From Actinocatenispora comari (GTDB lineage Bacteria > Actinomycetota > Actinomycetes > Mycobacteriales > Micromonosporaceae), in the NCBI RefSeq assembly GCF_017312725.1, contig NZ_BOPO01000010.1, positions 1-36,856 on the forward strand: a stretch of 36,856 nt of DNA, in the 5' to 3' direction. A model generated the notes under the pieces. That model searched no databases and was not told the DNA's origin. It saw only the letters and a list, made by a program, of their open reading frames with translations. Made by a program: the position numbers and the translations under genes. Shown here piece by piece: positions 1 to 23,760 of the stretch (positions are counted from its first letter, which is position 1; every line of letters starts with the position of its first letter).

Positions 1-1328
1 CCGGAGCCGACCACCAGCCGCACCTGGCGCAGGTCGCGGCCGGGACCGCGGCTGCCGTCGGCGCGGCGCTGCCCGCGGGCGTGCCGGCGCAGCGCGACGT
101 GCAGCGCGAGGCCGGCGAGCCGCCGGTCGAGGTCGCGCTCGGCGGCGCTGTCCGGCAGCAGGCCCGGCTCGGCGGCCCGCCGGTCGGCACCGGGGGCGAA
201 CGCCGCGACCGCATCGTCGGACAGCAGCCGTTCGTCCCGGGCGGCGGCGAGGATGCCGGGGGCGTTCCAACGCATCCCGAGGTCGCCCTCGACCGTACGG
301 GAGCGCCACAGGGTGCCGGCGACCTCGCGGCGCGGCCCGTCGCGTTCGGCGTCGGGGACCAGCACCGAGTACACGTCGGTGGTGGCGCCGCCGACATCGA
401 CGGCGAGGATCTCACCGGCCGCGGGAATCTCGGCGGCGCCGTCGGCGAGCAGCTCCACCCCGGCCAGTACGGCGTCGGGGGTGGCGGCCCGCACCAGCCG
501 CGGGAACCGCGCACCGCGGGACAGCTTCTTGCCGCCGATCACGTGCGACAGGAACACCTGCCGGATCGCGGCACGGGCCGGCGCCGGGTGCAGCTGCCCG
601 ATGCGGGGCAGCACGTTGTCGGTGACGGTGACCGGTACCCCGGCGTCGGCCAGCCGGTGTCGCACCGTCTCGGCGGCGTCGGCGTTGCCGGCGACCACCA
701 CCGGCACCCGCAGCCTGGTGCCGGCCAGCCGCGCCGCGTTGTGCGTGAGCACCTGCGCGTCGCCGCCGTCGGTACCGCCGACCAGCAGCACCACGTCGGG
801 CTTCGCGGCCCTCAGCGTCCGCACCCCGGCGGCGTCGAGCGGGCCGGCGGCGACGTGCACGACCCGGGCGCCGGCCGACAGCCCGACCCGGTGCCCGGCA
901 TCGGCGGTGACCAGCGGCTCGTACCCGACCACGGCCAGGCGCAGGCCTCCCCCGGCCGAGGAGCACACGTACTGCGCCGACAGGTCGGCGCCGGGCAGCT
1001 GCTCGGCCAGCCCGGCCAGGCAGGCGTCGTAACCGTGCAACACGTCGGTGTCGACGGTGGTGCGGTGTTCGGCGGTGGCCGCCACCGTACCGGTGGCGAG
1101 GTCGACGGCGAGCAGCTTGGTGTAGGTGGAGCCGACGTCGCCGCACACCGCGACCGCCTCGGCGCCACGCGGCGGGTGCCCGGTGGTCTCGGCACCACCG
1201 CGGCGCTCGGTGGTCTCGGTGCCACCCCGGCGCCGGGTGGTCCCGGCGCCGGACCGAGGCCTGGGCTCCGCGGGGGTGGCGCCGGTCCCCGGCCCGCCGG
1301 CGGGCGACGGGCGGCGGGGCTCGGTCAC
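1..1328 (-). CDS. MutL/GlmL-like mutase reactivase, 3' end missing
   Basis: An ASKHA-fold ATPase of the glutamate-mutase MutL (GlmL) family, unrelated to mismatch-repair MutL. The family sits beside B12-dependent aminomutases and is proposed to reactivate them. Read from the minus strand, the frame stays open to the window edge (442 codons). It shows a phosphate-binding motif CGDVGSTYTKLLAVDL near residue 65, a VLLVGGTDGGD loop and a second nucleotide-binding motif ILAVDVGGATTDVYSV. The GTG start overlaps the TGA of the preceding gene by 4 bp (GTGA), which fixes the start and implies translational coupling. The first 60 or so residues are a Pro/Arg/Thr-rich extension built partly from a 27-bp repeat (RRGGTETTE / RRGGAETTG). 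Its place at the end of the kamDE-kal run makes reactivation of lysine 5,6-aminomutase the likely job (inference). The C-terminus lies outside the window. Confidence 0.88.
   Translation of the reverse strand, partial: MTEPRRPSPAGGPGTGATPAEPRPRSGAGTTRRRGGTETTERRGGAETTGHPPRGAEAVAVCGDVGSTYTKLLAVDLATGTVAATAEHRTTVDTDVLHGYDACLAGLAEQLPGADLSAQYVCSSAGGGLRLAVVGYEPLVTADAGHRVGLSAGARVVHVAAGPLDAAGVRTLRAAKPDVVLLVGGTDGGDAQVLTHNAARLAGTRLRVPVVVAGNADAAETVRHRLADAGVPVTVTDNVLPRIGQLHPAPARAAIRQVFLSHVIGGKKLSRGARFPRLVRAATPDAVLAGVELLADGAAEIPAAGEILAVDVGGATTDVYSVLVPDAERDGPRREVAGTLWRSRTVEGDLGMRWNAPGILAAARDERLLSDDAVAAFAPGADRRAAEPGLLPDSAAERDLDRRLAGLALHVALRRHARGQRRADGSRGPGRDLRQVRLVVGS
1182..1250. repeat. 27-bp tandem repeat inside the MutL-like gene
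   Basis: Two full 27-bp units (1182-1208 and 1209-1235) and the start of a third follow each other in frame in the 5' part of the MutL-like gene. Each unit encodes nine residues. The units differ at a few positions. They lengthen only the disordered extension ahead of the ATPase fold. Confidence 0.75.
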
Positions 1329-1717
1329 GGGACGACGACGGTGCCGGTGGCGGTGACCGCGACGACCGGCTCGGCCAGCGCCTCGGCGGCCGACTCGCCC
1401 CGGTCCGGGCGGCCCCGGCACACCACCCGGGAGGCGAACTCGATGCGCCGCGAGCGGCGGCCGCGGGCGATCAGGGTGGCGGTGACCTCCAGGACGTCGC
1501 CGGCCCGTACCGGGGCGCGGAACTGCACGTCGTCGTAGGAGGCGAACAGCCCCTCGTCGCCGTCGGTACGGATGCACAGCTCGGTGGCGGCGTCGCCGAA
1601 CAGGCCCAGCGAGTACGCCCCGTCGACGAGGTTGCCGGCGTAGTGGGCGTGGCTGGCCGGCACGTACCGACGGTGTACGACGGTGACCTGGTCGGCGGGT
1701 GCCAGCGGCTCAGGCAT
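1325..1717 (-). CDS. kal: 3-aminobutyryl-CoA ammonia-lyase
   Basis: A small single hot-dog-fold protein of 130 residues, the usual size for Kal. It is expected to remove ammonia from L-3-aminobutyryl-CoA to give crotonyl-CoA in the lysine fermentation pathway. The N-terminal stretch HRRYVPASHAHYAGNLVDGA, the following FGDAATELCIRTDGDEGLFASYDDVQF and the core VRAGDVLEVTATLI match the Kal/hot-dog pattern. It overlaps the end of kamE by 8 bp and the start of the MutL-like gene by 4 bp, so it is inside a tightly coupled operon. Identification rests on both the sequence pattern and the neighbours. A generic hot-dog thioesterase is the alternative, but the kamDE context makes Kal much more likely. 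Confidence 0.9.
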   Translation of the reverse strand: MPEPLAPADQVTVVHRRYVPASHAHYAGNLVDGAYSLGLFGDAATELCIRTDGDEGLFASYDDVQFRAPVRAGDVLEVTATLIARGRRSRRIEFASRVVCRGRPDRGESAAEALAEPVVAVTATGTVVVP

Positions 1718-2483
1718 GCACGGTCTCCTTGGCGCGGTCGCGGCGGGTGATCAGGGCGTCGACGAGGTAGGACGCGACCTCGCCCGGGGTGGTGGAGCGG
1801 CCGAAGATGCGGTCGACGCCGAGCTCGCCGGACATCAGCTCGTCGAACCGCGGCCCGCCGGCGACCAGCAGCGGCCGCTTGTCGGCGCCGAACGCCTCCC
1901 GGAACGCCGCGGACGCCTCCCGCGTGTTGTGCAGGTGCGCGTCGCGTTGCGTGACGACCTGGGAGATCAGCACCGCGTCGGCGCGTTCGGCGCGCGCGGC
2001 CTCGACCAGGTCGGGCACCGCGACCTGGGCGCCGAGGTTGACCACCCGCATCTCCCGGTAGTACTCCAGCCCCTTGTGGCCGGCGGTGCCCTTGATGTTG
2101 AGGATGGCGTCGATGCCGACGGTGTGCGCGTCGGTGCCGATGCAGGCGCCGACCACGACCAGCTTGCGGCGCAGCTTCTTGCGGATCGTCTGGTTGACCG
2201 CCGCGGCGCTCAGCTCGGGGAAGTCGCGCTCCACCACCTGCACCGTCGACACGTCGACCAGGTGCTTGACCTGCCCGTACACCACGAAGAAGGTGAAGTC
2301 GGGGCCCATCGCCTTGGCGTGGACCAGCATCGCCGGGTCCATGCCCATCTTGCCGGCGAGCTGCAGCGCGGCCCCCTCGGCCCGCTTGTCGTGCGGTACC
2401 GGCAGGGTGAACGACAGCTGCACCATCCCGTCGCCGGTGGTGTCGCCGTACGGGCGGACGATCTGGTGTTGCGGCTCGGTCAT
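1710..2483 (-). CDS. kamE: Lysine 5,6-aminomutase beta subunit
   Basis: Cobalamin-binding subunit of the B12- and PLP-dependent enzyme that moves the terminal amino group of beta-lysine (or D-lysine) to the next carbon. The protein has 257 residues against about 262 in clostridia. The base-off/His-on B12 motif is DAHTVG with His120. Lys131 lies exactly eleven residues further on in ILNIKG, the same spacing as the clostridial cobalt-ligand His133 and PLP-binding Lys144. The C-terminal Rossmann-like half carries ADAVLISQVVTQRDAH and LLVAGGPRF. Its ATG overlaps the kamD stop by 4 bp (ATGA), as expected for two subunits made in equal amounts. All key residues are present, so I expect an active subunit. 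Confidence 0.97.
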   Translation of the reverse strand: MTEPQHQIVRPYGDTTGDGMVQLSFTLPVPHDKRAEGAALQLAGKMGMDPAMLVHAKAMGPDFTFFVVYGQVKHLVDVSTVQVVERDFPELSAAAVNQTIRKKLRRKLVVVGACIGTDAHTVGIDAILNIKGTAGHKGLEYYREMRVVNLGAQVAVPDLVEAARAERADAVLISQVVTQRDAHLHNTREASAAFREAFGADKRPLLVAGGPRFDELMSGELGVDRIFGRSTTPGEVASYLVDALITRRDRAKETVHA

Positions 2484-4087
2484 GCGTCCGCCTCCAGGAT
2501 GTCGGTGGCCGGGTTGTAGTAGGCGGTGTCCTTGGCCGCCACCCCGGACAGGCCCTTCCCGCCGTCCGGTGGGCGCTTCATGATGCCGAAGGTGCCGGCG
2601 CCGATGGCGTCCAGCAGCCCCTGCTCGCCGATGCGCTCCAGCAGGTCCAGCGCCTCCGACAGCACCTGGTTGGCGCGCTGCTGGATGAACCCGCCGGGCG
2701 CGGGGACGAAGTCCTCGTGCAGGTTGCCGGCGGCGCCCAGCACGTAGCGCACGTTGGCCAGGGCGATGTCGCGGTCCGACAGCCAGGGCGTGACGACCGC
2801 CTCGGTCATCATGCCGACCAGCAGGATCGACTGGCCGGTCATGGTGCCGGCGAGGTTGAAGAACCCGTCGAGCAGGTTGCCGCGGAACACGTCGCCGGTC
2901 ATGTGCTTGGTCGGCGGCATCCACTTCAGCGGCGCGTTCGGGAACAGTTCGCGGGCCAGCAGCGCGTGCGCGAGCTCCAGCCGGAACGAGTCGGGCAGAT
3001 CGGGGTTGATCTCGAACGCGTGCCCCAGGCCCAGCTGCCAGTCCGCCAGCCCGGCCTCCTTGCCGAAGTACTCGTTGAGCAGCTGGGAGACGGTGACGGT
3101 GTGCGCCTCGTCGACGGCGTCGGCGGTGGTGAGGTAGTTGTCCTCGCCGGTGTTGATGATGATGCCGGCGCGGGCGTGCACCTGCCGGGAGAACCGCTGG
3201 TCGACGAACGTGCGGATCGGGTTGATGTCGCGGAACAGGATCCCGTACATCGAGTCGTTGAGCATCATGTCCAGGCGTTCCATCCCGGCCAGCGCCGCGA
3301 TCTCCGGCATGCACAGCCCGGACGCGTAGTTGGTCAGCCGGATGTAGCGGCCCACCTCTTTGGACGTCTCGTCCAGCGCGGCGCGCATCAGCCGGAAGTT
3401 CTCCTGGGTGGCGTACGTGCCGGCGAACCCCTCGCGGGTGGCGCCCTCGGGCACGTAGTCCAGCAGCGACTGGCCGGTGGAGCGGATCACCGCGATGATG
3501 TCGGCGCCCTCCCGGGCGGCGGCCTGCGCCTGCGGGATGTCCTCGTAGATGTCGCCGGTGGCCACGATCAGGTACACCCAGGGCCGCTGCGGCGGGTCGC
3601 CCAGCCGGCGCACCAGCCGGTCGCGGGTGCTGCGGGCGGTGTCCATCCGCCGTACCCCGGCGGCGGCGGCGCGGCGGGCGGCCCGCCGGGCGGCGGTGGC
3701 CTGCTTGCCGTCGGGTACCTCGAAGCGCACCGAGCCGGCGCCGGCCTTCTGCGCCAGCGCCACCAGCGCGTCGCCGACCGGTACGTCCCGGCCGGCCAGC
3801 CCCTGCTGCGCCAGCGCGTGGAACACCGGCAGCGCGGCGCCGGCGGTCAGGCCGACGTCGGCGACCACGGCGTCGACCAGCCGGTTGACCCACGGGATGC
3901 CGTCCGGGTCGGCGCCGTGCATGCCGGCCAGCCGCAGCACGGCACGCTCCACCGACACGGTGGTGTGCTCACGGGCCAGCTTCACCACCGGCCGGCCGGC
4001 CCGGCGGGCCAGCGTCCGGGCGCGGCGAACCAGCGCCGGATCCAGGTCCAGCTTGCGACCGCGTCGGGGCCGCGCCATTGCTGCCAC
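2480..4087 (-). CDS. kamD: Lysine 5,6-aminomutase alpha subunit
   Basis: Catalytic TIM-barrel subunit (535 residues; clostridial KamD is about 516) that holds PLP and substrate and pairs with KamE. Family segments are clear: YLIVATGDIYEDIPQAQAAA, GADIIAVIRSTGQSLLDYVP, GRYIRLTNYASGLCMPEIA, MMLNDSMYGILFRDIN and a C-terminal FGIMKRPPDGGKGL. A GTG start is chosen: a strong AGGAGG lies 8 bases ahead of it, whereas the in-frame ATG three codons later would be 17 bases away. The first 30 residues are Arg/Lys-rich. The 160-bp gap in front separates it from the amidohydrolase on the same strand, so it could have its own promoter, but I see no clear one. Confidence 0.97.
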   Translation of the reverse strand: MAAMARPRRGRKLDLDPALVRRARTLARRAGRPVVKLAREHTTVSVERAVLRLAGMHGADPDGIPWVNRLVDAVVADVGLTAGAALPVFHALAQQGLAGRDVPVGDALVALAQKAGAGSVRFEVPDGKQATAARRAARRAAAAGVRRMDTARSTRDRLVRRLGDPPQRPWVYLIVATGDIYEDIPQAQAAAREGADIIAVIRSTGQSLLDYVPEGATREGFAGTYATQENFRLMRAALDETSKEVGRYIRLTNYASGLCMPEIAALAGMERLDMMLNDSMYGILFRDINPIRTFVDQRFSRQVHARAGIIINTGEDNYLTTADAVDEAHTVTVSQLLNEYFGKEAGLADWQLGLGHAFEINPDLPDSFRLELAHALLARELFPNAPLKWMPPTKHMTGDVFRGNLLDGFFNLAGTMTGQSILLVGMMTEAVVTPWLSDRDIALANVRYVLGAAGNLHEDFVPAPGGFIQQRANQVLSEALDLLERIGEQGLLDAIGAGTFGIMKRPPDGGKGLSGVAAKDTAYYNPATDILEADA

Positions 4088-4247
4088 CTCGATGACCTCC
4101 TGCTCGTTTCGTGCCGCCCCGCGGGCGACCGTGTCTCGTGCCGCCCGGCGGCGGTGCTGCCTCGCGCCGCCCCGCGGCCGTGCCGCCCCGCGCCGCCAGG
4201 CGATGGTGCTGCTCTGCGCCGCCGGGCGGTGGCCGCCGGCGGCCCGG
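4088..4247. other. Intergenic gap with degenerate GC-rich repeats
   Basis: The gap holds the ribosome binding site of kamD and, further upstream of that gene, three to four degenerate copies of a unit resembling TCGTGCCGCCCCGCGG (about 4109-4240) spaced by roughly 26-30 bases. No gene, clear terminator or promoter is visible. The low complexity may form strong RNA structure between the amidohydrolase and kamD. Confidence 0.5.
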
Positions 4248-5774
4248 TCAGGCCGTGTGGATGGTGACCCCGTCGCGTACGGTGCGCAGGCAGCGCGGGG
4301 TGGCGTCGGGGTCGTCGAGCAGCGGCAGGCCGTGCTCGTCCAGCCCGGCCGGGCAGTCCCACACCGCCAGCGTCGCCGGCGCGCCTGGGGCGAGGTAGCC
4401 GGCCTCGTCGTACCGGGCGGCCCGCCACCCGCCGCGGGTGTGCGCGGCGAACGCGGTGCGCACGCTGATGCGCTGCGCCGGGTTGTGGTGGTGGGCGGCG
4501 GCCCGCACCCCGCCCCACGGGTCGAGCGGGGTGACCGGCGAGTCGGACCCGAACGCCAGCGGCACCCCCACCCCCGACAGCGACCCGAACGGGTTGGACG
4601 CCAGCGAGCGGTCCAGTCCCAGCCGCGTCTCGTACATCTGGCCGGCGCCGCCCCACAGCCGGTCGAACGCCGGCTGCACGCTGGCGGTCAGCCCGAACTC
4701 GACCAGCCCGGCGATCAGCGTCTTGGTGAGGATCTCCGCGTGCTCGACCCGGTGCCGGGCCGCGCGCAGCCGCTCGATGCCGACGACCTCGGCGGCGGCG
4801 GCGAACCCGGCCAGTACGGTCTCGACCGCCGCGTCGCCGATGGCGTGCATGCCGCCCTGCATGCCGTGCCCGGTGCAGTCGACGATGTGCGCGGCGACCT
4901 GCTCGGCGGACAGCAGCCCGTGCCCGCAGCCCCCGGCGTCGGCGTACGGGACGCTCAGGTACGCGTCGGTGGACCCGAGCGCGCCGTCGGCGTACAGGTC
5001 ACCGGCGGCGCCGACGGCACCCAGCTCCCGCGCCTTGCTCGCCGCGCCGAGCTCCCCCCAGTACCCGATGACCTGCGGTACCGGCTGGGACGCGGAGGCG
5101 GCGAGCAGTTCGGTGAAGTCGATCTCGGAGCTGGTGGTCGGCCCGCCGCACTCGTGCACGCAGCCGATGCCGACCGACGCGGCGGTGGCCAGCGCCAGCT
5201 GCTGCGCCCGGTGCCGGGTCGCGGCGTCCAGCTGCCCGGTCGCGGCGACGTACAGCGCGTCGACCGCCTCCAGGGTGTGCCGGCCGTCGGCGCCGAAGCC
5301 GGGCATGCCGGTCACCCCCGGCACCGCGGCGGCCAGCGCACCGGTGGCCAGCGCGGCGTGCCCGCTGATGTGCGAGACGTAGCAGGGCCGCCCGTCGACC
5401 GCGGACTCCAGCTGCGTGCGGTGCGGCAGCGCCGGGTCCGGCCAGGTCGACTCGTCGTAGCCGCGGGCGTACACCAGGGCACCGGCGGGCAGCGTGGCCG
5501 CGTGCGCGGCGAGCGCGTCGAGCAGCTGGGCCGCCGACCGGACCGGCGAGACGTCCAGCAGTGTCATGGTCAGGCCGGTGTTGGTCAGGTGGGCGTGCGC
5601 GTCGACGAACGCGGGCGCCACCAGCGCCCCGTCCAACTCGACGGTGGTCTCGGCGGTGGGGGCGTCGTCGTCCGTGCCGACCCAGCTGATCCGGTCGCCG
5701 TCGACGGCAAGGGCTGTGGCGTGCGGGTCGGCCGGGCTGTACACCCGACCGCCGCGATACAGGGTTCGCACCAT
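4248..5774 (-). CDS. YtcJ-like metal-dependent amidohydrolase
   Basis: A 508-residue amidohydrolase-superfamily protein of the YtcJ / N-substituted formamide deformylase type; such enzymes cleave amide or formamide bonds with one or two metal ions. Visible metal ligands are His60 and His62 (DAHAHL), His310 (GMHAIGDAAV), His345 (RHRVEHAEIL) and Asp411 (FGSDSPV). In the usual 'K-x-x-x-DG-x-LGS' segment the lysine position is Asp259 (GDLYADGALGST), so the bridging carboxylated lysine seems to be missing. ATG is listed as start, but the GTG right after it is better spaced from GGAGG. It lies 38 bp behind kdd on the same strand and so probably in the lysine operon. It has no role in the known pathway. 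The substrate is unknown: an acylated or cyclised diamino acid is possible (inference). Confidence 0.85.
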   Translation of the reverse strand: MVRTLYRGGRVYSPADPHATALAVDGDRISWVGTDDDAPTAETTVELDGALVAPAFVDAHAHLTNTGLTMTLLDVSPVRSAAQLLDALAAHAATLPAGALVYARGYDESTWPDPALPHRTQLESAVDGRPCYVSHISGHAALATGALAAAVPGVTGMPGFGADGRHTLEAVDALYVAATGQLDAATRHRAQQLALATAASVGIGCVHECGGPTTSSEIDFTELLAASASQPVPQVIGYWGELGAASKARELGAVGAAGDLYADGALGSTDAYLSVPYADAGGCGHGLLSAEQVAAHIVDCTGHGMQGGMHAIGDAAVETVLAGFAAAAEVVGIERLRAARHRVEHAEILTKTLIAGLVEFGLTASVQPAFDRLWGGAGQMYETRLGLDRSLASNPFGSLSGVGVPLAFGSDSPVTPLDPWGGVRAAAHHHNPAQRISVRTAFAAHTRGGWRAARYDEAGYLAPGAPATLAVWDCPAGLDEHGLPLLDDPDATPRCLRTVRDGVTIHTA

Positions 5775-5812
5775 GCCCTCCAGTCTTCCCCGCGTGCCTG
5801 CCGCCGCGCCGA

Positions 5813-6877
5813 TCAGCCCGCGAGCCGGGCGCCGAACAGCTCCCGCACTCCGGGCTCGGTGCGCAGCAGCTCCAGCGCGAACGCGGCGTGGCCGGGCACG
5901 TAGCCGTTGCCGACGAGCATCGTGACGTCGGCGGCGAGCCCCTCGGCGCCCAGCGCGGCGGCGGCGAACGAGGTGGCCATGGAGAAGAAGATCACCGTGC
6001 CGCCCTCGGCGGTGGCGAGGATCGCGCCGTGCTCGCAGCCGGGTACGTCGACGCACACCACGGTCACGTCGGCGCCGGTGCCCACGGCGGCCGCGAGCGC
6101 GACCGGGTCGGTGGCGTCGGCGATCACGACGGTGTCGGCGAGGCCGGCCGCCGTGAGCCGGTCGGCCTCGGCCCGGGTCGGTACCACGCCGACGGTGCTG
6201 GCGCCGGCGCGGCGGGCGGCGGCGAGCGACAGGCTGCCGGACTTGCCGGCACCACCGAGCACCGCGACCCGCGGCGCGCCACCGAGCCGGGCTGCGGCGG
6301 CCTCGACCACCCGGGCGGTCAGCGCCGGCGCGCCGCACACGTCCAGTACCGCGAGCGACAGTTCGGGGTCCTCGTCGTCGGGCAGCACCGCGGCGATGGA
6401 GCGGGCGAACAGGATGGCGTGGCCGGCGGCGGGCACCTGCTCGCCGCGGCCGTCCCAGCCGGCGAGCCCGTCGGTGACCGCGAGCGGGGTCAGCGTCAGC
6501 GACACCAGGGTGGCGACCCGCTGCCCGACCCGCAGACCCAGCAGCGACTTCTCGCCGACCGCGTCGACGGTGCCGATCAGCATGCCGCCGGAGCCGGTGA
6601 CCGGATTGTGCATCTTGCCGCGGCTGGTGATGATCTCCAGCACCTCGGCGCGGATCGCGTCGCCGTCACCGCCGTGCTTGGTCGCCAGCTGCCGGTAGCT
6701 CGCCGCGTCCAGGTTGAGCCGTTCCAGGCTGATGCGTACCTCGCCGGGCCGGATGTCGGGGCGGGTGTCCAGTCGCTGCGCGGCCTGCGGCAGCACCCCG
6801 ACGGGCGCCAGCACCCGGTGCAGGCCGACCGGCGACTCGGTCGCCGTCGCCTCGCTACGTTCCGCGACCCCGCTCAT
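5813..6877 (-). CDS. kdd: L-erythro-3,5-diaminohexanoate dehydrogenase
   Basis: NAD(P)-dependent oxidative deamination of 3,5-diaminohexanoate to 3-keto-5-aminohexanoate, the step after lysine 5,6-aminomutase. The 354-residue protein has the Kdd N-terminal pattern GLHRVLAPVGVLPQAAQRLD, then RISLERLNLDAASYRQL and GKMHNPVTGSGGMLIGTV. A Rossmann nucleotide-binding loop VAVLGGAGKSG lies near residues 204-214, and the C-terminal part carries MLVGNGYVPGHA. The ATG has GGAGG five bases ahead; an in-frame GTG four codons earlier would overlap that ribosome binding site and is rejected. The first 17 residues (with AERSEATATES) are an extension compared with the family. First gene of the minus-strand operon and divergent from kamA. 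Confidence 0.95.
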   Translation of the reverse strand: MSGVAERSEATATESPVGLHRVLAPVGVLPQAAQRLDTRPDIRPGEVRISLERLNLDAASYRQLATKHGGDGDAIRAEVLEIITSRGKMHNPVTGSGGMLIGTVDAVGEKSLLGLRVGQRVATLVSLTLTPLAVTDGLAGWDGRGEQVPAAGHAILFARSIAAVLPDDEDPELSLAVLDVCGAPALTARVVEAAAARLGGAPRVAVLGGAGKSGSLSLAAARRAGASTVGVVPTRAEADRLTAAGLADTVVIADATDPVALAAAVGTGADVTVVCVDVPGCEHGAILATAEGGTVIFFSMATSFAAAALGAEGLAADVTMLVGNGYVPGHAAFALELLRTEPGVRELFGARLAG

Positions 6878-6933
6878 GCGCCCCTCCACATCCGTGCCAC
6901 ACCGGAAATCCTTCGGCAGGATAATTACTCACC

Positions 6934-6957
6934 CGCAAGAATTCCACTATCCTTGCG
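6934..6957. promoter_or_regulatory. Putative operator between kdd and kamA
   Basis: An inverted repeat with 9-bp arms and one mismatch, CGCAAGAAT-N6-ATCCTTGCG, lies in the 126-bp divergent gap. The right arm ends one base before a possible kamA -10 element, TAAGGT (6959-6964). A second short inverted repeat, ATCCT-N5-AGGAT, sits at 6908-6922 on the kdd side. The gap is much more A+T-rich than its surroundings. The placement suits a regulator acting on both directions. Which protein binds is unknown. Confidence 0.55.
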
Positions 6958-7003
6958 CTAAGGTACCGGAGCACGCGGCACCGGCAAGCGAGGAGGCAAC
7001 ACC

Positions 7004-8482
7004 GTGGCGGAGCACGCCGGCAACACTGTGGCGGAACAGGTCGAGAGCACCCTGGCGCAGGGCGACGGCACCGGCGGCCAGCCGTACGAGTACCGCCGGG
7101 TCGAGCTGGTCGAACCCGACTGGACCCGACTGCCCGGTTTCGCCGAGGTCACCGCCGCCCAGTGGCGCTCCGCGCAGTGGCAGCGCGCGCACTGCGTCAA
7201 GAACATCAAGCAGCTGCGGCAGCTGATGGGCGACCTGCTGGACGAGAGGTTCTACGACGACCTCGCCGCCGACCAGAAGCAGCACGCGACCATGTCGATG
7301 CTGCTGCCGCCGCAGATGCTCAACACCATCGTGCCCGCCGGGGTGCCCGACACCGACGCGTTCTACGCCGACCCGATCCGCCGGTACATGCTGCCGGTCG
7401 CCTCCGACCGCCGCACCGACTGGCCCAGCCACCCGCACGCCACCCGCGACTCGCTGCACGAGCACGACATGTGGGTGGCAGAGGGCCTGACCCACCGGTA
7501 CCCGACGAAGGTGCTCGCCGAGTTGCTGTCGACCTGCCCGCAGTACTGCGGCCACTGCACCCGGATGGACCTGGTCGGCAACTCCACCCCCACCATCGAC
7601 AAGCTGCGGCTGTCCGGCAAGCCGGTCGACCGGTACGACGCGATCATCAGCTACCTGCAGCAGCACCCCGAGGTGCGCGACGTGGTCGTCTCCGGCGGCG
7701 ACGTGGCCAACGTGCCGTGGAAGAACCTCGAAGCGTTCCTGATGCGGCTGCTCGCCATCGACACCATCCGCGACATCCGGCTGGCCACCAAGGCGCTGAT
7801 GGGCATGCCGCAGCACTGGCTCGCCCCCGACGTCGTCGAGGGGCTGGAGCGGGTGGCCCGCACCGCCCACCGGCGCGGCGTCAACCTCGCCATCCACACC
7901 CACGTCAACCACGTCAACTCGCTGACCCCGCTGGTCGCCGAGGCCGCCCGCACCGCCCTGGACGTCGGCGTACGCGACGTGCGCAACCAGGGCGTGCTGA
8001 TGCGCGGCGTCAACGCCACCGACACCGACCTGCTCGACCTGTGCTTCGGGCTGCAAGGCGAGGCGAACATCCTGCCGTACTACTTCTACATGTGCGACAT
8101 GATCCCCAACGCCGAACACTGGCGGGTCTCGGTCGCCGAGGCACAGCACCTGCAGCACGCCATCATGGGCTACCTGCCCGGCTACGCCACCCCGCGCATC
8201 GTGTGCGACGTGCCGTTCGTCGGCAAACGCTGGGTGCACATGCTCGCCGACTACAACCGCGAACGCGGCATCTCCTACTGGACCAAGAACTACCGCACCG
8301 GCATCGAGCTCGACGACCCCGACGCACTCGACCGCCGGTACCCGTTCTACGACCCGATCTACACCCTGCCCGAGGCCGGCCAGCAGTGGTGGCGGGAGAA
8401 CTTCCCGCCCGACACCGCGGCCGCCGCCGATGCCGCGGCGGCGTCCCGCGCGGCCGCCGAACGCGACGCCGTACACGCCTGA
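7004..8482 (+). CDS. kamA: Lysine 2,3-aminomutase, radical SAM
   Basis: First step of the pathway: L-lysine to L-beta-lysine using a 4Fe-4S cluster, S-adenosylmethionine and PLP. The cluster motif is CPQYCGHC (Cys178, Cys182, Cys185). Two aspartates that hold the lysine side-chain amino group in the clostridial enzyme (Asp293, Asp330) have counterparts Asp365 (YMCDM) and Asp402 (VCDVP) with the same spacing of 37. The PLP lysine is probably Lys408, but the usual Gly-rich PGGGGK loop reads PFVGK and is one residue shorter. At 492 residues it is longer than the clostridial protein (about 416), with an Ala-rich tail. The GTG start has GAGGAGG seven bases ahead. It is transcribed away from kdd and is followed by a strong terminator. 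Glutamate or arginine mutase activity is less likely given the two aspartates. Confidence 0.93.
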   Translation: MAEHAGNTVAEQVESTLAQGDGTGGQPYEYRRVELVEPDWTRLPGFAEVTAAQWRSAQWQRAHCVKNIKQLRQLMGDLLDERFYDDLAADQKQHATMSMLLPPQMLNTIVPAGVPDTDAFYADPIRRYMLPVASDRRTDWPSHPHATRDSLHEHDMWVAEGLTHRYPTKVLAELLSTCPQYCGHCTRMDLVGNSTPTIDKLRLSGKPVDRYDAIISYLQQHPEVRDVVVSGGDVANVPWKNLEAFLMRLLAIDTIRDIRLATKALMGMPQHWLAPDVVEGLERVARTAHRRGVNLAIHTHVNHVNSLTPLVAEAARTALDVGVRDVRNQGVLMRGVNATDTDLLDLCFGLQGEANILPYYFYMCDMIPNAEHWRVSVAEAQHLQHAIMGYLPGYATPRIVCDVPFVGKRWVHMLADYNRERGISYWTKNYRTGIELDDPDALDRRYPFYDPIYTLPEAGQQWWRENFPPDTAAAADAAAASRAAAERDAVHA

Positions 8483-9919: not shown

Positions 9920-12900
9920 ATGACGCGACGCAGAACAGTCCTCGCCGCCGGCGCAGCCGGCGCCGGCCTGGCCGCCACCGGCCTCGCCGGCCCCGCCGCC
10001 GCCCAGGACACCGCCGAACCCGCCCGCGCCGCCCTGCGCCGCCTCATCGGCCGCCGCGCCGACCAACTCACCCTCGGCCTCACCGACCGCGGCGACACCG
10101 ACACCTACCGGATCTTCGGCAACCGTGGACGGCTGCACATCGAGGCCACCACCCCGGCGACCATCCTCACCGGCTTCCACCGCTACCTCGGCGAAACCCT
10201 GCACGCCGGAATCTGGTGGGCCGGCACCAACCTCGACCACCTGCCCGCCCAACTACCCGCACCCGCCACCCCGATCACCGGCCACGCCGACGTACCCCAC
10301 CGGTTCGCCCTCAACGACACCAACGACGGCTACACCGGCCCTTACTGGGACCTCGACCGCTGGCGCCGCGAGGTCGACATCCTCGCCCTGCACGGCTTCA
10401 ACGAGATCCTCGTCTACCTCGGCGCCGACGCCGTCTACCGCGACACCCTGCGCGAGTTCGGCTACACCGACGACGAGGTCCGCGCCTGGATCCCGGCACC
10501 CGCCCACCAGCCCTGGTGGCTGCTGCAGAACATGTCCGGCTTCGGCGGACCCGTCGCCGCCGACCTCATCGAGCACCGCGCCCGCACCGCCGCCGGCCTG
10601 ATCGACCACATCCGCGCCCTCGGAATGACCCCCGTACTGCCCGGCTACTTCGGCACCGTCCCACCCGACTTCGCCGACCGCAACACCGGCGCCCACGTCG
10701 TACCCCAGGGCAGCTGGTGCGGCTTCACCCGACCCGGCTGGCTCGACCCCCGCGACGACCACTTCACCCGGCTCGCCGCCGCCTTCTACCGCCACTCCAC
10801 CGCCCGCTACGGCGACACCACCATGTACAAGATGGACCTGCTGCACGAGGGCGGCACCGCCGGCGACGTCCCCGTCGGCCCCGCCTCGAAGGCCGTCGAG
10901 ACCGCCCTGCGCACCGCGCACCCCGACGCCACCTGGGTCATCCTCGGCTGGCAGGACAACCCCAAGAAGGACACCATCGCCGCCGTCGACACCAGCCGCA
11001 TGCTCATCGTCGACGGGCTGTCCGAACACGCCGACAAGACCGACCGCGACACCGACTGGTCACACACCCCGTACGCCTTCGGCACGATCTTCAACTACGG
11101 CGGCAAGTCCACCCTCGGCGCAGCCGGCGCCGCCTGGCTCGGCAAGTACCGGCAGTGGCGCGACAAACCGGGCGGCGCACTGTCCGGCATCGCCCTGATG
11201 CCCGAAGCCGGCGACACCAACGCCGCCGCCCTCGACCTGTTCGCCTCGCTCGCCTGGACCGACCACGCCATCGACGCCCACGACTTCTACACCGACTACG
11301 CCACCCGCCGCTACGGCCGCGCCGACCGGCACGCCACCGCCGCCTGGCAGACCCTGCGCGCCACCGCCTACGCCCTCGACGGCACCGTCAAGGGCGAACC
11401 ACAAGACAGCCTGTTCGCCGCCCAACCCAGCCTGTCCGCCACCTCCGGCGCCGGCTGGTCACCCACGACCATGCAGTACGACGGGGCCACCTTCGACCAG
11501 GCGCTGCCCCTGCTGCTCGCCGCCCACCCCACCCTGCGCCACACCGACGCCTACCGGCACGACCTCGTCGACGTCGCCCGGCAGACCCTCACCAACCGCA
11601 GCCGCATCCTGCTACCCCAGATCGCCGCCGCCCACCACGCCGGCGACACCGCCACCTTCGACGAACTCACCACCCTGTGGCTGACCTGGATGCGGCTGCT
11701 GGACCGACTCGTCGCCAGCCGACCCGAATTCCTGCTCGGCCCCGCCCTCGCCACCGCCCACCGCACCGCGGGCGCCGCCGGCGAGTTCGACCAGCGCACC
11801 ATCCTCACCGTCTGGGGCGACCGCAACGCCAGCCAGGTCGGCGGCCTGCACGACTACGCCAACCGCGAATGGCACGGCCTGATCGGCGACGTCTACCTCG
11901 ACCGCTGGCGCCGCTACTTCGACAGCCTGCGCACCGCCCTGACCACCGGCCGGGCACCCACCCCGATCGACTGGTACGCACTCACCGACGCCTGGACCCG
12001 CCGCACCAACACCTACCGCAGCCACCCCACCGGCGACGAACACGCCCTCGCCACCGCCGTGCACCGGGCGCTCGCCGCCGACACCCACCAGGTACCGGTG
12101 ACCGTCACCGCCGACCCCGCCGTGCTCGTCGCCGGCGCCGCCACCACCCTGACCGCCCGCATCACCAACGCCAGCGGCCTGTCCGACGTGCACGCCGCCA
12201 CCCTCACCCCCGGCGTACCCGACGGCGCCACCGTCACCGCACTCGACCCCACCGGCATCGCCACCCTCGCCGGCGGCACCAGCGCCACCGTCCGCTGGCG
12301 CGTCACCGCACCCTCCGACTGGCACACCGACCAACCCACCGCCACCCTGACCGTACGAGCCGACTACCGCGCCGGCCGCACCACCGGCCACGCCACCGGC
12401 ACCGCCCGGGTACTCGCCGGCAGCCCCGTCACCGCCCCCTACACCACCGTCGACTTCAACGACGCCACCTTCGCCGCCGCCGGTACCGGCTTCGGCATCT
12501 ACGGCGGCGGCCGCGACATGTGGGGCGGCACCAACCAGTTCGCCGCCATCGTGCTACCCGGCGGGCTCCCCGACGGCGCCACCGCCACCGCCCGCGTCGT
12601 CCTCCAGGACCCCACCGGCCAGTGGGCCCGCGCCGGCCTGGTCGTCCGCAACTCGCTGGCCACCAACGGATCCCTCGGCTACGCCAACCTCGCCGTCACC
12701 CCGCAACACGGCTGCGCGCTGTCGGTCGACGACAACGGCGACGGCAAGCTCAACAAGGTCACCTCCGCCGCCGGACCCGTCGCACCCGTCACCCTGCGGC
12801 TGACCCGCGCCGGCGCCGACCTCACCGCCGCCTACTCCCCCGACGGCACCACCTGGACCACCCTCGGCACCGTGCGCCCCAGCGGCCTCGCCGCCACCCC

Positions 12901-12985
12901 CGACATCGGCATCTTCATGACCGCCGCCAACGGCGGCTCCGGCGCCACCGGCATCGCCACCTTCGACACCATCAGCGTGCACTGA
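9920..12985 (+). CDS. Tat-exported GH89 alpha-N-acetylglucosaminidase
   Basis: A 1021-residue secreted glycosidase of family GH89, which removes alpha-linked N-acetylglucosamine from glycans. The N-terminus TRRRTVLAAGAAGAG followed by cleavage near AAA-QD (residue 28) is a twin-arginine signal. The family's fold markers are present: RREVDILALHGFNEIL, LGMTPVLPGYFGTVP, and FGTIFNYGGKSTLGA. By position the catalytic glutamates should be Glu310 (MDLLHEGG) and Glu429 (LMPEAGDTN). After the catalytic part come an Ig-like NEW3-type segment (about 730-835) and a jelly-roll-like C-terminal domain (about 840-1021) that may bind carbohydrate. The ATG follows GGAGG by six bases. The two glutamates are assigned by motif alignment from memory, not by a computed alignment. 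Confidence 0.9.
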   Translation: MTRRRTVLAAGAAGAGLAATGLAGPAAAQDTAEPARAALRRLIGRRADQLTLGLTDRGDTDTYRIFGNRGRLHIEATTPATILTGFHRYLGETLHAGIWWAGTNLDHLPAQLPAPATPITGHADVPHRFALNDTNDGYTGPYWDLDRWRREVDILALHGFNEILVYLGADAVYRDTLREFGYTDDEVRAWIPAPAHQPWWLLQNMSGFGGPVAADLIEHRARTAAGLIDHIRALGMTPVLPGYFGTVPPDFADRNTGAHVVPQGSWCGFTRPGWLDPRDDHFTRLAAAFYRHSTARYGDTTMYKMDLLHEGGTAGDVPVGPASKAVETALRTAHPDATWVILGWQDNPKKDTIAAVDTSRMLIVDGLSEHADKTDRDTDWSHTPYAFGTIFNYGGKSTLGAAGAAWLGKYRQWRDKPGGALSGIALMPEAGDTNAAALDLFASLAWTDHAIDAHDFYTDYATRRYGRADRHATAAWQTLRATAYALDGTVKGEPQDSLFAAQPSLSATSGAGWSPTTMQYDGATFDQALPLLLAAHPTLRHTDAYRHDLVDVARQTLTNRSRILLPQIAAAHHAGDTATFDELTTLWLTWMRLLDRLVASRPEFLLGPALATAHRTAGAAGEFDQRTILTVWGDRNASQVGGLHDYANREWHGLIGDVYLDRWRRYFDSLRTALTTGRAPTPIDWYALTDAWTRRTNTYRSHPTGDEHALATAVHRALAADTHQVPVTVTADPAVLVAGAATTLTARITNASGLSDVHAATLTPGVPDGATVTALDPTGIATLAGGTSATVRWRVTAPSDWHTDQPTATLTVRADYRAGRTTGHATGTARVLAGSPVTAPYTTVDFNDATFAAAGTGFGIYGGGRDMWGGTNQFAAIVLPGGLPDGATATARVVLQDPTGQWARAGLVVRNSLATNGSLGYANLAVTPQHGCALSVDDNGDGKLNKVTSAAGPVAPVTLRLTRAGADLTAAYSPDGTTWTTLGTVRPSGLAATPDIGIFMTAANGGSGATGIATFDTISVH

Positions 12986-20480: not shown

Positions 20481-21254
20481 GTGTTGGGGCTTCCGAACGG
20501 CGTCCGCGCCTGCCTGTTCGATCTTGACGGCGTGCTCACCCGCACCGCCGTGGTGCATGCCGAGGCGTGGCGGCAGATGTTCGACGCGTACCTCGCGGAG
20601 CGTGCGCGCCGCGAGCACGCCACCGCGCAGCCCTTCACGCAGAGCGACTACGACCGGTACGTCGACGGGAAGCCACGGCAGGACGGCACCCGTTCGTTCC
20701 TCGCTTCCCGTGGCATCACCCTGCCGGAGGGGTCGCCGGACGACCCGCCGACCGCCGAGACCGTGCGCGGGCTGGGCAACCGGAAGAACGAGCTGGTGCT
20801 GCGGCTGATCCACGACCAGGGCGTCGACGCCTACCCGGGTTCGGTGCGGTACGTGCTGGCCGCGCGCCGGGCCGGCCTGCGCCGCGCCGTGGTCTCCTCC
20901 AGCGCCAACTGCCGGGACGTGCTGGCCGCGGCCGGCATCCAGGACCTGTTCGAGGAGATCGTGGACGGGGTCGTCGCCGCCCGCGACGGCCTGGCCGGCA
21001 AGCCGGCGCCGGACACGTTCCTCGCCGCGGCCCGCACCCTGGGCGTGGCACCCGACGAGGCGGCCGTGTTCGAGGACGCGCTGTCCGGCGTCGCGGCCGG
21101 CCGGGCCGGGAAGTTCGGTCTGGTCGTCGGGGTCGACCGGGTAGGCCAGGCCGACGCGCTGCGCGAGCACGGCGCCGAGGTGGTCGTCGACGACCTCGCC
21201 GAGCTGATCGACGCCGACATCCCCGAGGCAGAGCCGCATACCGCGCGGCACTGA
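20481..21254 (+). CDS. Beta-phosphoglucomutase-like HAD protein
   Basis: A 257-residue HAD-superfamily enzyme with the beta-phosphoglucomutase signature: catalytic Asp14 and Asp16 in LFDLDGVLT, a cap domain, [12 protein letters not shown] (motif 2), [12 protein letters not shown] (motif 3) and [12 protein letters not shown] (motif 4). It should turn beta-glucose 1-phosphate into glucose 6-phosphate. This fits its place ahead of the GH65 phosphorylase, which releases beta-glucose 1-phosphate. GTG start, probably leaderless: a TACTAT -10 ends seven bases before it and there is no ribosome binding site. An upstream in-frame extension would run through this promoter and is rejected. Confidence 0.92.
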
Positions 21255-21405
21255 CCCGGACCGCAGCACCCGGGCGCCGTCGGCGATCCGGTGACACCGG
21301 GCCGGACCGGCCACCGGACAACCACATCATCACCCATGCTTGCCGTCACGGCGTCGAATGGCGCCGCAGCCGGCGTACACCACGAACCATGAAGATCGGG
21401 GAACC

Positions 21406-23760
21406 ATGACTACTGGCCGGGCGTTCACCGTGGAGCCCTGGTGCCTGCGCGAACTGAGCCTCGACCTGGACCGGATAGCCCAGTCGGAGTCGGTGTTCGC
21501 GCTGTCCAACGGGCACATCGGGCTGCGGGCCAACCTGGACGAGGGCGAGCCGCACGGCCTGCCGGGCACGTACCTCAACGGCGTGTTCGAGCTGCGCCCG
21601 CTCCCGTACGCGGAGGCCGGGTACGGCTATCCGGAGTCCGGGCAGACGGTCATCAACGTCACCAACGGCAAGCTGATCCGGCTGATGGTCGACGACGAAC
21701 CGTTCGACCTGCGGTACGGCACGCTGCGCGCGCACGAGCGCAACCTGGACTTCCGGGACGGGGTGCTGCGCCGCGACGTCACCTGGACCTCGCCGGCCGG
21801 CCGTACCGTGCAGGTGACCTCGACCCGGCTGGTGTCGTTCACCCAGCGCGCCATCGCGGCGATCTGCTACGAGGTGGAGCCGGTCGACGGCCCGGCCCGG
21901 GTGGTGCTGCAGTCGGAGCTGGTGGCCAACGAGCAGCTGCCCGAGCAGTCCGGTGACCCGCGCGCCGCCGCCGTGCTGGAGGCGCCGCTGCGGGCCGAGC
22001 ACAACGGCGTGTCCGGCGAGCGGGGCGCGATCCTGATCCACCAGACGGCCCGCTCCGGGCTGCGGGTGGCCGCCGGGATGGACCACCGGATCACGGTGCC
22101 CGAGGAGGTCAACCTGCACGTGGCCACCGAGTCGTTCGACGACCTGGCCCGGACCACCGTCGCCACCGTGCTGCGCCCCGGGCAGAAGCTGCGGCTGGTC
22201 AAGTTCCTCGCGTACGGCTGGTCGTCGTACCGGTCGGTGCCGGCGGTGCGCGACCAGGTCGCCGCGGCGCTGTCGGCGGCCCGGTTCACCGGCTGGAACG
22301 GGCTGCTCGCCGAGCAGCGCAAGTACCTCGACGAGTTCTGGCAGGGCGCCTCGGTCGAGGTGGACGGCGACACCGAGATCGAGCAGGCGATCCGGTTCGC
22401 GCTGTTCCACGTGCTGCAGGCCAGCGCCCGGGCCGAGCAGCGGGCGATCCCGGCGAAGGGGTTGACCGGCCCCGGCTACGACGGGCACTCGTTCTGGGAC
22501 ACCGAGATCTTCGTGCTGCCGGTGCTGACCTACAGCGTGCCGCAGGCGGTGGAGCAGGCGCTGCGCTGGCGGTACAACACGTTGCCGATGGCGCGGGACC
22601 GGGCCCAGCAACTCGGGCTGGCCGGGGCGGTGTTCCCGTGGCGGACCATCCGCGGCGAGGAGTGTTCCGGCTACTGGCCGGCCGGTACGGCCGCGTTCCA
22701 CCTCGGCGCGGGCATCGCGCACGCGGTGGTGCGGTACGTGCAGGCGACCGACGACCGCGACTTCGAGCGCGAGGTGGGCCTGGAGCTGCTGGTGGAGACG
22801 GCGCGGATGTGGCGCTCGCTGGGCCACCACGACACGCACGGCCAGTTCCGGATCGACGGGGTGACCGGCCCGGACGAGTACTCGGCGATCGCCGACAACA
22901 ACGTCTACACCAACCTGATGGCGCGCCGGAACCTGATCGCGGCGGCCGACGTGGCGGAACGCTATCCGTCGCGGGCCGGCGAGCTGGACGTCAGCGTCGA
23001 GGAGATGGCGTCCTGGCGGGACGCGGCGAAGGCGATGACCATCCCGTACGACGAGACGCTCGGGGTGCATCCGCAGTCGGAGGGGTTCACCAGCCACGAG
23101 CACTGGGACTTCGCCGCCACCGGCAGCCGGTATCCGCTGATGCTGCACTTCCCGTACTTCGACATCTACCGCAAGCAGGTGGTCAAGCAGGCCGACCTGG
23201 TGCTCGCGATGCAGACCTGCGGGGAGGCGTTCACCCCGGAGCAGAAGGCGCGCAACTTCGCCTACTACGAGCCGATCACGACGCGGGACTCGTCGCTGTC
23301 GGCGTGCAGCCAGGCGGTGATCGCCGCCGAGTGCGGCCACCTGGACCTGTCGCTGGACTACCTGGCCGAGGCGGCCCTGACCGACCTGTACGACCTGCAC
23401 GCCAACACCAAGGACGGGCTGCACATGGCCTCGCTGGGCGGGGCCTGCCTGGCGCTGGTGGCCGGGTTCGGCGGGCTGCGCGACTCCGAGGAGGGGCTGG
23501 CGTTCGCGCCGCGGCTGCCGCGGGGGCTGTCCCGGGTGGCCTTCCGGATGCTGATCCGCGGCCACCACCTGCGGGTCGAGGTGACCAGCGAGACCGCGAC
23601 GTACTCGCTGGTCGACGGGCCGGCGATCCCGATCGGCCACCACGGCGAGCGGCTGATGCTCGCCCCCGGCGACCCGGTGACCCGGTCGATCCCCCCGGCG
23701 CCGAGCTGGCCGGAGCCGCTGCAGCCGCCGGGGCGGGCGCCCCGCCGCCGGGAGCCCTGA
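21406..23760 (+). CDS. GH65 disaccharide phosphorylase
   Basis: A 784-residue glycoside hydrolase family 65 protein. Members cleave maltose, trehalose, kojibiose or related glucosides with phosphate, giving beta-glucose 1-phosphate and glucose. The catalytic general acid is Glu491 in GPDEYSAIADNNVYTN. The phosphate site is supported by RDSSLSACSQAV, so a phosphorylase rather than a hydrolase is expected. Other markers: FWDTEIFVLPVL, FPWRTIRGEECSGYWPAGTAAFH and HWDFAATGSRYPLMLHFPY. The exact disaccharide cannot be told from sequence. ATG start with GGGGA ahead; a six-codon frame (MKIGEP) ends on it in an ATGA overlap. Forms a functional pair with the upstream HAD gene. Confidence 0.95.
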   Translation: MTTGRAFTVEPWCLRELSLDLDRIAQSESVFALSNGHIGLRANLDEGEPHGLPGTYLNGVFELRPLPYAEAGYGYPESGQTVINVTNGKLIRLMVDDEPFDLRYGTLRAHERNLDFRDGVLRRDVTWTSPAGRTVQVTSTRLVSFTQRAIAAICYEVEPVDGPARVVLQSELVANEQLPEQSGDPRAAAVLEAPLRAEHNGVSGERGAILIHQTARSGLRVAAGMDHRITVPEEVNLHVATESFDDLARTTVATVLRPGQKLRLVKFLAYGWSSYRSVPAVRDQVAAALSAARFTGWNGLLAEQRKYLDEFWQGASVEVDGDTEIEQAIRFALFHVLQASARAEQRAIPAKGLTGPGYDGHSFWDTEIFVLPVLTYSVPQAVEQALRWRYNTLPMARDRAQQLGLAGAVFPWRTIRGEECSGYWPAGTAAFHLGAGIAHAVVRYVQATDDRDFEREVGLELLVETARMWRSLGHHDTHGQFRIDGVTGPDEYSAIADNNVYTNLMARRNLIAAADVAERYPSRAGELDVSVEEMASWRDAAKAMTIPYDETLGVHPQSEGFTSHEHWDFAATGSRYPLMLHFPYFDIYRKQVVKQADLVLAMQTCGEAFTPEQKARNFAYYEPITTRDSSLSACSQAVIAAECGHLDLSLDYLAEAALTDLYDLHANTKDGLHMASLGGACLALVAGFGGLRDSEEGLAFAPRLPRGLSRVAFRMLIRGHHLRVEVTSETATYSLVDGPAIPIGHHGERLMLAPGDPVTRSIPPAPSWPEPLQPPGRAPRRREP

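Follow-up and report, generated by a model that had tools for sequence, protein, structure and literature searches.

What does an actinomycete with respiratory genes do with a pathway known mainly from strict anaerobes? The question is raised by a lysine fermentation-type locus at the left end of contig NZ_BOPO01000010.1 (C10 in our numbering) of Actinocatenispora comari. The window, meaning the whole stretch of DNA that was analysed, comprises 36,856 nucleotides, and the source genome is a 7.96 Mb draft in 151 contigs with a completeness of 96.5%. We consider it highly probable that the locus belongs to a chromosomal pathway by which aerobic actinomycetes degrade lysine (beta-lysine), a pathway encoded in two places and whose products are respired. 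The pathway made famous by anaerobes would thereby become a widespread trait of aerobic-type actinomycetes.

Gene identities were set by reading frames and by family scans (Pfam, and NCBIfam with its equivalog cut-offs). The genes kamA, kamD, kamE, kdd and kal are all present in the window, as a sequence-only reading of the same DNA had stated. The two subunits of lysine 5,6-aminomutase (KamD and KamE), Kdd and Kal exceed their equivalog cut-offs (Table 1) and are thus of the lysine fermentation type. The same reading had pointed to spacings of 11 residues between His120 and Lys131 of KamE and of 37 residues between Asp365 and Asp402 of KamA; both are real and conserved across aligned relatives. 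Residue conservation was assessed only in sequences that passed length and identity filters (80 for KamE and 71 for KamA). The KamE residues D118, H120, G123 and K131, which make up the B12-site motif D-x-H-x-x-G plus K131, are identical in all 80. Solved relatives of KamD are 8t0v (E 5.2e-164), 9q1a and 1xrs, and its identity to the best 80 relatives is at most 85%, the top value being to Micromonospora.

The pathway is no oddity of one actinomycete, as a sample of 197 genomes of the class shows. The KamD model matched in 52 of these (49 over cut-off), spread over 21 family codes, and the lysine fermentation-type gene set is a widespread trait in actinomycetes. A 2009 survey lists lysine 5,6-aminomutase among B12 enzymes occurring in only 2 to 26 organisms (PMC2667541). 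At least 580 KamD relatives were confirmed among species-representative genomes, and the best 80 were read as named kamD loci (43 from Micromonosporaceae, 21 from Nocardioidaceae, 8 from Kribbellaceae and 8 others, five of which are single named groups). Neighbours were counted only at covered loci, that is, those whose contig reached far enough. The codon-usage gene caller missed some genes (e.g., KamA in locus L144), and the counts reported here rest on tblastn. Near kamD we detected KamA in 64 of 66 covered named loci, Kdd in 65 of 66 (one about 10 kb away), KamE and Kal in 65 of 65 each, an amidohydrolase in 55 of 66, MutL in 31 of 65 and lnt in 53 of 54. At many loci the pathway genes are flanked by lnt, ppm1, fxsA and rbpA on one side and, on the other, by genes for a regulator of the Lrp/AsnC type and a 5'-3' exonuclease, and for this reason we place the kam locus in a housekeeping region. 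It has presumably been inherited vertically.

Kce is missing from the window, as the sequence-only reading had remarked. Absence of kce from the entire genome, which would have counted against that reading, was not observed: a whole-genome search recovered a candidate, although one scoring below the cut-off of the Kce model. This Kce-like gene of the beta-keto acid cleavage family lies on another contig (C90:60526-61356). Its position inside a contig of 77443 led us to reject the idea that kce sits at the end of a neighbouring contig. The best solved relative of the protein is the Kce structure 2y7d. Of the eight Kce residues reported in PMC5741869, the protein shares H46, H48, S82, E143, R226, E230 and D231, and it has S in place of T106. 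The same pattern holds throughout 22 Kce-like orthologues, all of which have S at T106. E14, which we take to be a further key residue of Kce, is kept as E in the protein and is found in 19 of the orthologues, with a gap in 3.

The Kce-like gene follows kamD across genomes. In the class sample, orthologues with at least 55% identity were detected in 50 of 52 genomes with kamD and in 1 of 145 without it (Fisher P 3.5e-43, with no correction for relatedness), and no full-length match in the 197 genomes falls between 36 and 55%. In three of the 50 genomes the orthologue is partial or in two pieces (G043, G070 and G119). The two kamD genomes in which it was not detected are drafts (G023, 80% complete, and G150, 68%), and the sole genome with an orthologue and no kamD is a draft as well (G069, 94% complete), with KamA (68%) near a contig start. 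The distance from kamD to kce is 0.56-2.8 Mb in the six genomes that have both on one contig, the contigs being taken as circular, and no Kce-like match was found near kamD in the 80 named loci, 46 of which extend a full 10 kb on each side. Given this co-occurrence over a large distance, the pathway appears to be divided between two loci that are retained or lost as a pair, and the unlinked Kce is a candidate for the missing step. Of 22 kce loci, 14 have a gene that we take to be RsiG-like after kce and 13 have a YgfZ-like gene nearby; the source genome has the YgfZ-like gene there, and no RsiG-like gene was seen.

The sequence-only reading had also suggested that the pathway feeds respiration, and this part fits the genome. 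Three full-length matches and one partial match to the COX1 family were detected, as well as an acetoacetyl-CoA synthetase (802.7 bits, over the cut-off of 520.9), and the source genome gave no match to a family I CoA transferase. Because of these three observations the products are likely respired in A. comari. The AtoAD-like CoA transferase that the reading had proposed to look for was not found in the source genome. Predicted from sequence, the enzymatic steps, substrates and direction of flux would be as follows. KamA would convert L-lysine to beta-lysine, KamDE, with B12 and pyridoxal phosphate (PLP), would convert beta-lysine to 3,5-diaminohexanoate, and Kdd would oxidize this to 3-keto-5-aminohexanoate. 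The distant Kce would combine the latter with acetyl-CoA to give acetoacetate and 3-aminobutyryl-CoA, from which Kal would release ammonia and form crotonyl-CoA. Acetoacetate would be activated by acetoacetyl-CoA synthetase, and both acetoacetate and crotonyl-CoA would end as acetyl-CoA, to be respired and not made into butyrate. From established pathway knowledge, the conversion of lysine to acetoacetate and crotonyl-CoA should therefore yield three net acetyl-CoA per lysine with no carbon lost.

The nearest known system is the anaerobic lysine fermentation of Acetoanaerobium and Fusobacterium (Kreimeyer et al. 2007, as relayed in PMC3149608 and PMC4619459). It shares with the actinomycete genome kamA, kamD, kamE, kdd, kal and a Kce-like enzyme, and the KamD proteins of the two anaerobes are 49-51% identical to that of the window. 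In Acetoanaerobium noterae the gene order is kal-kce-kdd-kamA-kamB-kamC-kamD-kamE, and the Fusobacterium record has matches to kal, kce, kdd, kamA, kamD and kamE in this order. The A. noterae KamA (645.2 bits against the AblA model) and Kce (455.5 bits) both exceed their cut-offs, unlike the actinomycete proteins. In contrast to the anaerobes, kce is unlinked here, kamB and kamC gave no match in the sequences read, and KamA is only a distant sequence relative whose gene is divergently transcribed. The host also carries respiratory genes and an acetoacetyl-CoA synthetase. The Kat variant of lysine fermentation (PMC3149608) has the same upstream enzymes but lacks kal, whose step is performed there by a beta-transaminase, whereas Kal is present here.

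KamA is the divergent member of the set. AblA is its top equivalog model, ahead of the arginine and glutamate models, and 2a5h is its sole PDB match at E 0.001 (E 1.4e-39). The residues C178, C182, C185, R187 and D365 are kept in all 71 aligned sequences, and D402 and K408 in 70, the remaining sequence having a gap. We take R187, D365 and D402 to align with the substrate-binding residues of lysine 2,3-aminomutase. It is decidedly improbable that KamA acts on an amino acid other than lysine, with KamDE working on D-lysine or on imported beta-lysine. Such a reading would suit the low AblA score, the low identity to anaerobe KamA (28-30%) and, in the alignment to 2a5h, a loop that is one residue shorter before the PLP-type lysine, but it sits poorly with the conserved residues, the ranking of the models and the kamDE neighbourhood.

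KamA homologues also occur in genomes with no kamD match. One (76% identity; G112, L143 7710-9107) lies inside a cluster that looks, from its translations, like one for a nonribosomal peptide synthetase/polyketide synthase (NRPS/PKS); another (62%; G056, L144 7172-8596) lies beside an ATP-grasp-looking protein. The former would fit a pathway that serves beta-lysine and not lysine, by salvage from the organism's own natural products or from antibiotics made by others, with KamA mainly supplying beta-lysine elsewhere. The divergent transcription of KamA would fit as well, and so would the lysine aminomutase reported for a polyketide cluster of Actinoplanes (PMC3364876). We nevertheless regard salvage as improbable. 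The nearly constant presence of KamA near kamD in covered loci speaks for KamA feeding KamDE, the amidohydrolase of the operon belongs to the lnt block, and no beta-lysine antibiotic genes were seen in the loci read, although no search aimed at them was made. Antibiotic beta-lysine, raised as a substrate in the sequence-only reading, gained nothing in its favour but stays a less probable alternative.

Several observations weigh against a respired lysine pathway encoded at two loci. The Kce-like protein reaches 259.9 bits against a Kce cut-off of 382, none of the 197 class genomes exceeds this cut-off and the Acetoanaerobium Kce does; judged by sequence, the protein could cleave another beta-keto acid. 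KamA likewise scores far under the AblA cut-off, its identity to the anaerobe counterparts is well below the 49-51% of KamD, and the cysteines near the C-terminus of lysine 2,3-aminomutase have no counterpart in it; its substrate could differ from lysine. KamA orthologues (at least 60% identity) occur with no kamD match in six class genomes (G056, G063, G069, G112, G126 and G156), and kamD occurs with no KamA orthologue in three (G014, G119 and G166). The source genome is a draft, and the P values treat genomes as independent and ignore kinship. Finally, KamDE is expected to need reactivation, yet KamB and KamC found no match in the sequences read. This raises the question of how the enzyme stays active in air.

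A MutL-like reactivase had been named in the sequence-only reading. A MutL-family gene is indeed present at the left edge of the window, but it matches GlmL-family models (NCBIfam glmL_fam 233.6 bits, over the cut-off of 204.05) and not KamB or KamC, which NCBIfam names as the reactivase of lysine 5,6-aminomutase; at E 0.001 only GlmL-type models match, and the KamB and KamC models do not. The gene is split by the contig break: its last residues are found at G000:C83:12-122 (profile 414-450), where matches to lnt and then fxsA follow. A tblastn search (E 1e-3) for KamB and KamC in 210 partly overlapping sequences (kamD loci and other loci, not whole genomes) returned no match, and the MutS-like KamC that was to be looked for was accordingly not recovered in them. 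Both proteins were detected in Acetoanaerobium, the positive control. The GlmL-type MutL lies near kamD in all 30 covered Micromonosporaceae loci and in one unplaced metagenome-assembled genome, and in none of the 34 other covered loci.

One actinobacterial genome with kamD also encodes an OraE ornithine 4,5-aminomutase (1317.5 bits, over the cut-off of 800) with an adjoining GlmL-related protein (G081; L153, C1:2596000-2606000). Because such a protein accompanies the ornithine mutase there, we consider the GlmL-type MutL a candidate substitute for KamB and KamC, and by analogy it may reactivate KamDE in Micromonosporaceae. In both systems a B12 aminomutase has a GlmL-type MutL protein at its side. 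They differ in that KamD and KamE of the window match the lysine models, not OraE, and are separate subunits.

The amidohydrolase gene between kdd and kamD was absent from the sequence-only reading. Its residues H60, H62, H310, H345 and D411 are invariant in 21 sequences and would form a putative metal site. These residues, the frequent presence near kamD noted above and a distant relative in the alternative cassette described below would be expected if the enzyme belonged to the pathway, for example by freeing beta-lysine from amides. Only 6 of 17 covered Nocardioidaceae loci have it, however, and it occurs where kam genes do not. Streptomyces sp. BHT-5-2 has the order ACAD-Lrp-amidohydrolase-lnt-ppm1-fxsA-rbpA, which looks like the same block minus the kam genes, and Tsukamurella tyrosinosolvens has fxsA-amidohydrolase-lnt-ppm1-rbpA; neither gave a kam match within that stretch, the other replicons not having been searched. 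The amidohydrolase is therefore probably a resident of the lnt-ppm1-fxsA-rbpA block and not a lysine enzyme, and a role in the pathway, which we dropped as a leading idea because of these lnt-block copies, is highly improbable.

The slot between the Lrp/exonuclease side and lnt does not always hold the kam genes. In G063, G126 and G156, three of the class genomes with KamA and no kamD match, KamA keeps its place and kdd-kamDE-kal are replaced by genes for a GNAT protein, an Amidohydro_3 protein, an AMP-binding CoA ligase and an enoyl-CoA hydratase-type protein, all running in the direction of KamA. No Kce-like orthologue was found in these three genomes. We examined a second sample of 196 genomes from their genus, called Nocardioides-like because named Nocardioides loci fall among its genomes in trees. 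Here kamD was detected in 123 genomes, the GNAT marker in 28, neither in 45 and both in none (0 vs 17.6 joint cases expected; P 1.9e-14, uncorrected for relatedness). Of the 28, three belonged to the class sample as well, and these three are the ones in which the Kce-like orthologue was looked for and not found. Loci were read for 23 of the 28 GNAT-marker genomes, and in 22 of them all four cassette genes lie between KamA and lnt in the KamA direction; the remaining locus, L183, shows GNAT and KamA next to the Lrp/exonuclease side and no other cassette gene. In 20 kamD loci of this genus, read mostly from good assemblies, the kam genes occupy the same slot.

The two modules appear to have replaced each other repeatedly. 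A tree of six flanking proteins shows 6 changes of module type, at least 4 of them by starred (well supported) branches. This tree was built by a quick method from 53 of 56 rows (L183, L191 and L192 were left out because their flanks are missing) and includes four long rows, which makes its stars less reliable. On the KamA tree, built from 55 of 56 rows, there are also 6 changes, at least 2 by starred branches. Flanks that travelled with a module would lower, not raise, these counts.

What the cassette might do is suggested by pathways for beta-amino acids. Beta-lysine degradation in a Pseudomonas reportedly begins with acetylation. CoA ligases and hydratase-type ammonia lyases degrade beta-valine in Pseudomonas (BvaA and BvaB; PMC4619459), and the cassette likewise encodes a CoA ligase and an enoyl-CoA hydratase-type protein. 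In the latter, E130 is found in all 23 aligned rows (22 loci, the reference being counted twice) and E156 in 21, with D in 2. Taken together, the beta-valine pathway and the reported acetylation underlie our proposed order of acetylation, activation and deamination: GNAT would acetylate beta-lysine, the CoA ligase would activate the product, the hydratase-type protein would remove ammonia, and after shortening of the chain the amidohydrolase would deacetylate. The analogy thus suggests B12-free degradation of beta-lysine by CoA activation and ammonia elimination. Unlike the cassette's ligase, BvaA resembles phenylacetate CoA ligases, the gene table shown in PMC4619459 has no GNAT or amidohydrolase, and the substrate there is beta-valine.

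It is unlikely, in our view, that the cassette is unrelated to beta-lysine and reached the slot by chance. In favour of chance, its domains are generic, its GNAT matches no NCBIfam family and its amidohydrolase is only 28-30% identical to that of the window. In addition, 4 of the 23 loci (L169, L170, L173 and L176) carry a further ligase-like gene (31-32% identical to the cassette CoA ligase) in lnt direction between the cassette and lnt. A chance arrival is difficult to reconcile with the exclusion of GNAT and kamD, with the order and direction kept in nearly all loci, with the repeated changes on the tree, and with the demonstration (PMC4619459) that a CoA ligase and a hydratase-type ammonia lyase form a route for another beta-amino acid. 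We instead propose, tentatively and with nearly even prospects, that KamA is a common entry to beta-lysine, and that the slot then holds either of two modules that can stand in for each other, the B12-dependent Kdd-KamDE-Kal with unlinked Kce or a B12-free acetylating route, and that lineages swap them repeatedly. The second route would be undescribed. Among the open-access papers listed, judged by title and start of abstract, none describes an actinobacterial kam pathway or the cassette, this search being weak since enzyme names that contain commas cannot be searched. The replacement of a B12-dependent by an apparently B12-free module in one slot, and the reverse, is a natural experiment.

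Table 1. Features of the kam locus in the window, with their supporting matches (scores in bits)
Feature	Position	Strand	Basis
MutL/GlmL-family protein, candidate reactivase	1..1148	-	Pfam MutL 404.5, profile 3-386 of 450; cut by contig end
Kal	1325..1717	-	NCBIfam NF052388 191.3 vs cut-off 160
KamE	1710..2483	-	NCBIfam NF052385 344.2 vs cut-off 280
KamD	2480..4078	-	NCBIfam NF052384 693.9 vs cut-off 600
Amidohydro_3 (YtcJ-like) amidohydrolase	4248..5774	-	Pfam Amidohydro_3 220; between kdd and kamD
kdd, L-erythro-3,5-diaminohexanoate dehydrogenase	5813..6877	-	NCBIfam NF052381 254.6 vs cut-off 200
Divergent kdd/kamA intergenic region	6878..7003		weak motif match, 4/16 mismatches
kamA, divergent lysine 2,3-aminomutase-type radical SAM enzyme	7004..8482	+	AblA model 158.6 vs cut-off 525.4; PDB 2a5h

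The region between kdd and kamA was searched for shared elements. A TTGCG/CGCAA-type dyad was set aside as not conserved because it occurs in only 1 of 72 intergenic regions, and no Rfam riboswitch match at gathering scores was found in the window or in three other loci. A motif like GGCTACTGGAAAACTT was detected within 4 mismatches in 16 positions in 27 of 39 Micromonosporaceae regions vs 0 of 360 shuffled sequences, a count that is inflated because the motif was chosen from these same, closely related sequences. The window copy has 4 mismatches, and outside Micromonosporaceae the matches are mostly no better than in shuffled sequences. The motif is a possible regulator site.

Elsewhere in the window, we identified a NicT/NixA-type nickel/cobalt transporter (30753-31790, minus strand; 558.3 bits, over the NicT cut-off of 450) and an alpha-N-acetylglucosaminidase (NAGLU) family protein with a signal-like start (9920-12985, plus strand). 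A HAD hydrolase followed by a glycoside hydrolase family 65 protein (20481-23760, plus strand) is perhaps a pair of disaccharide phosphorylase and mutase.

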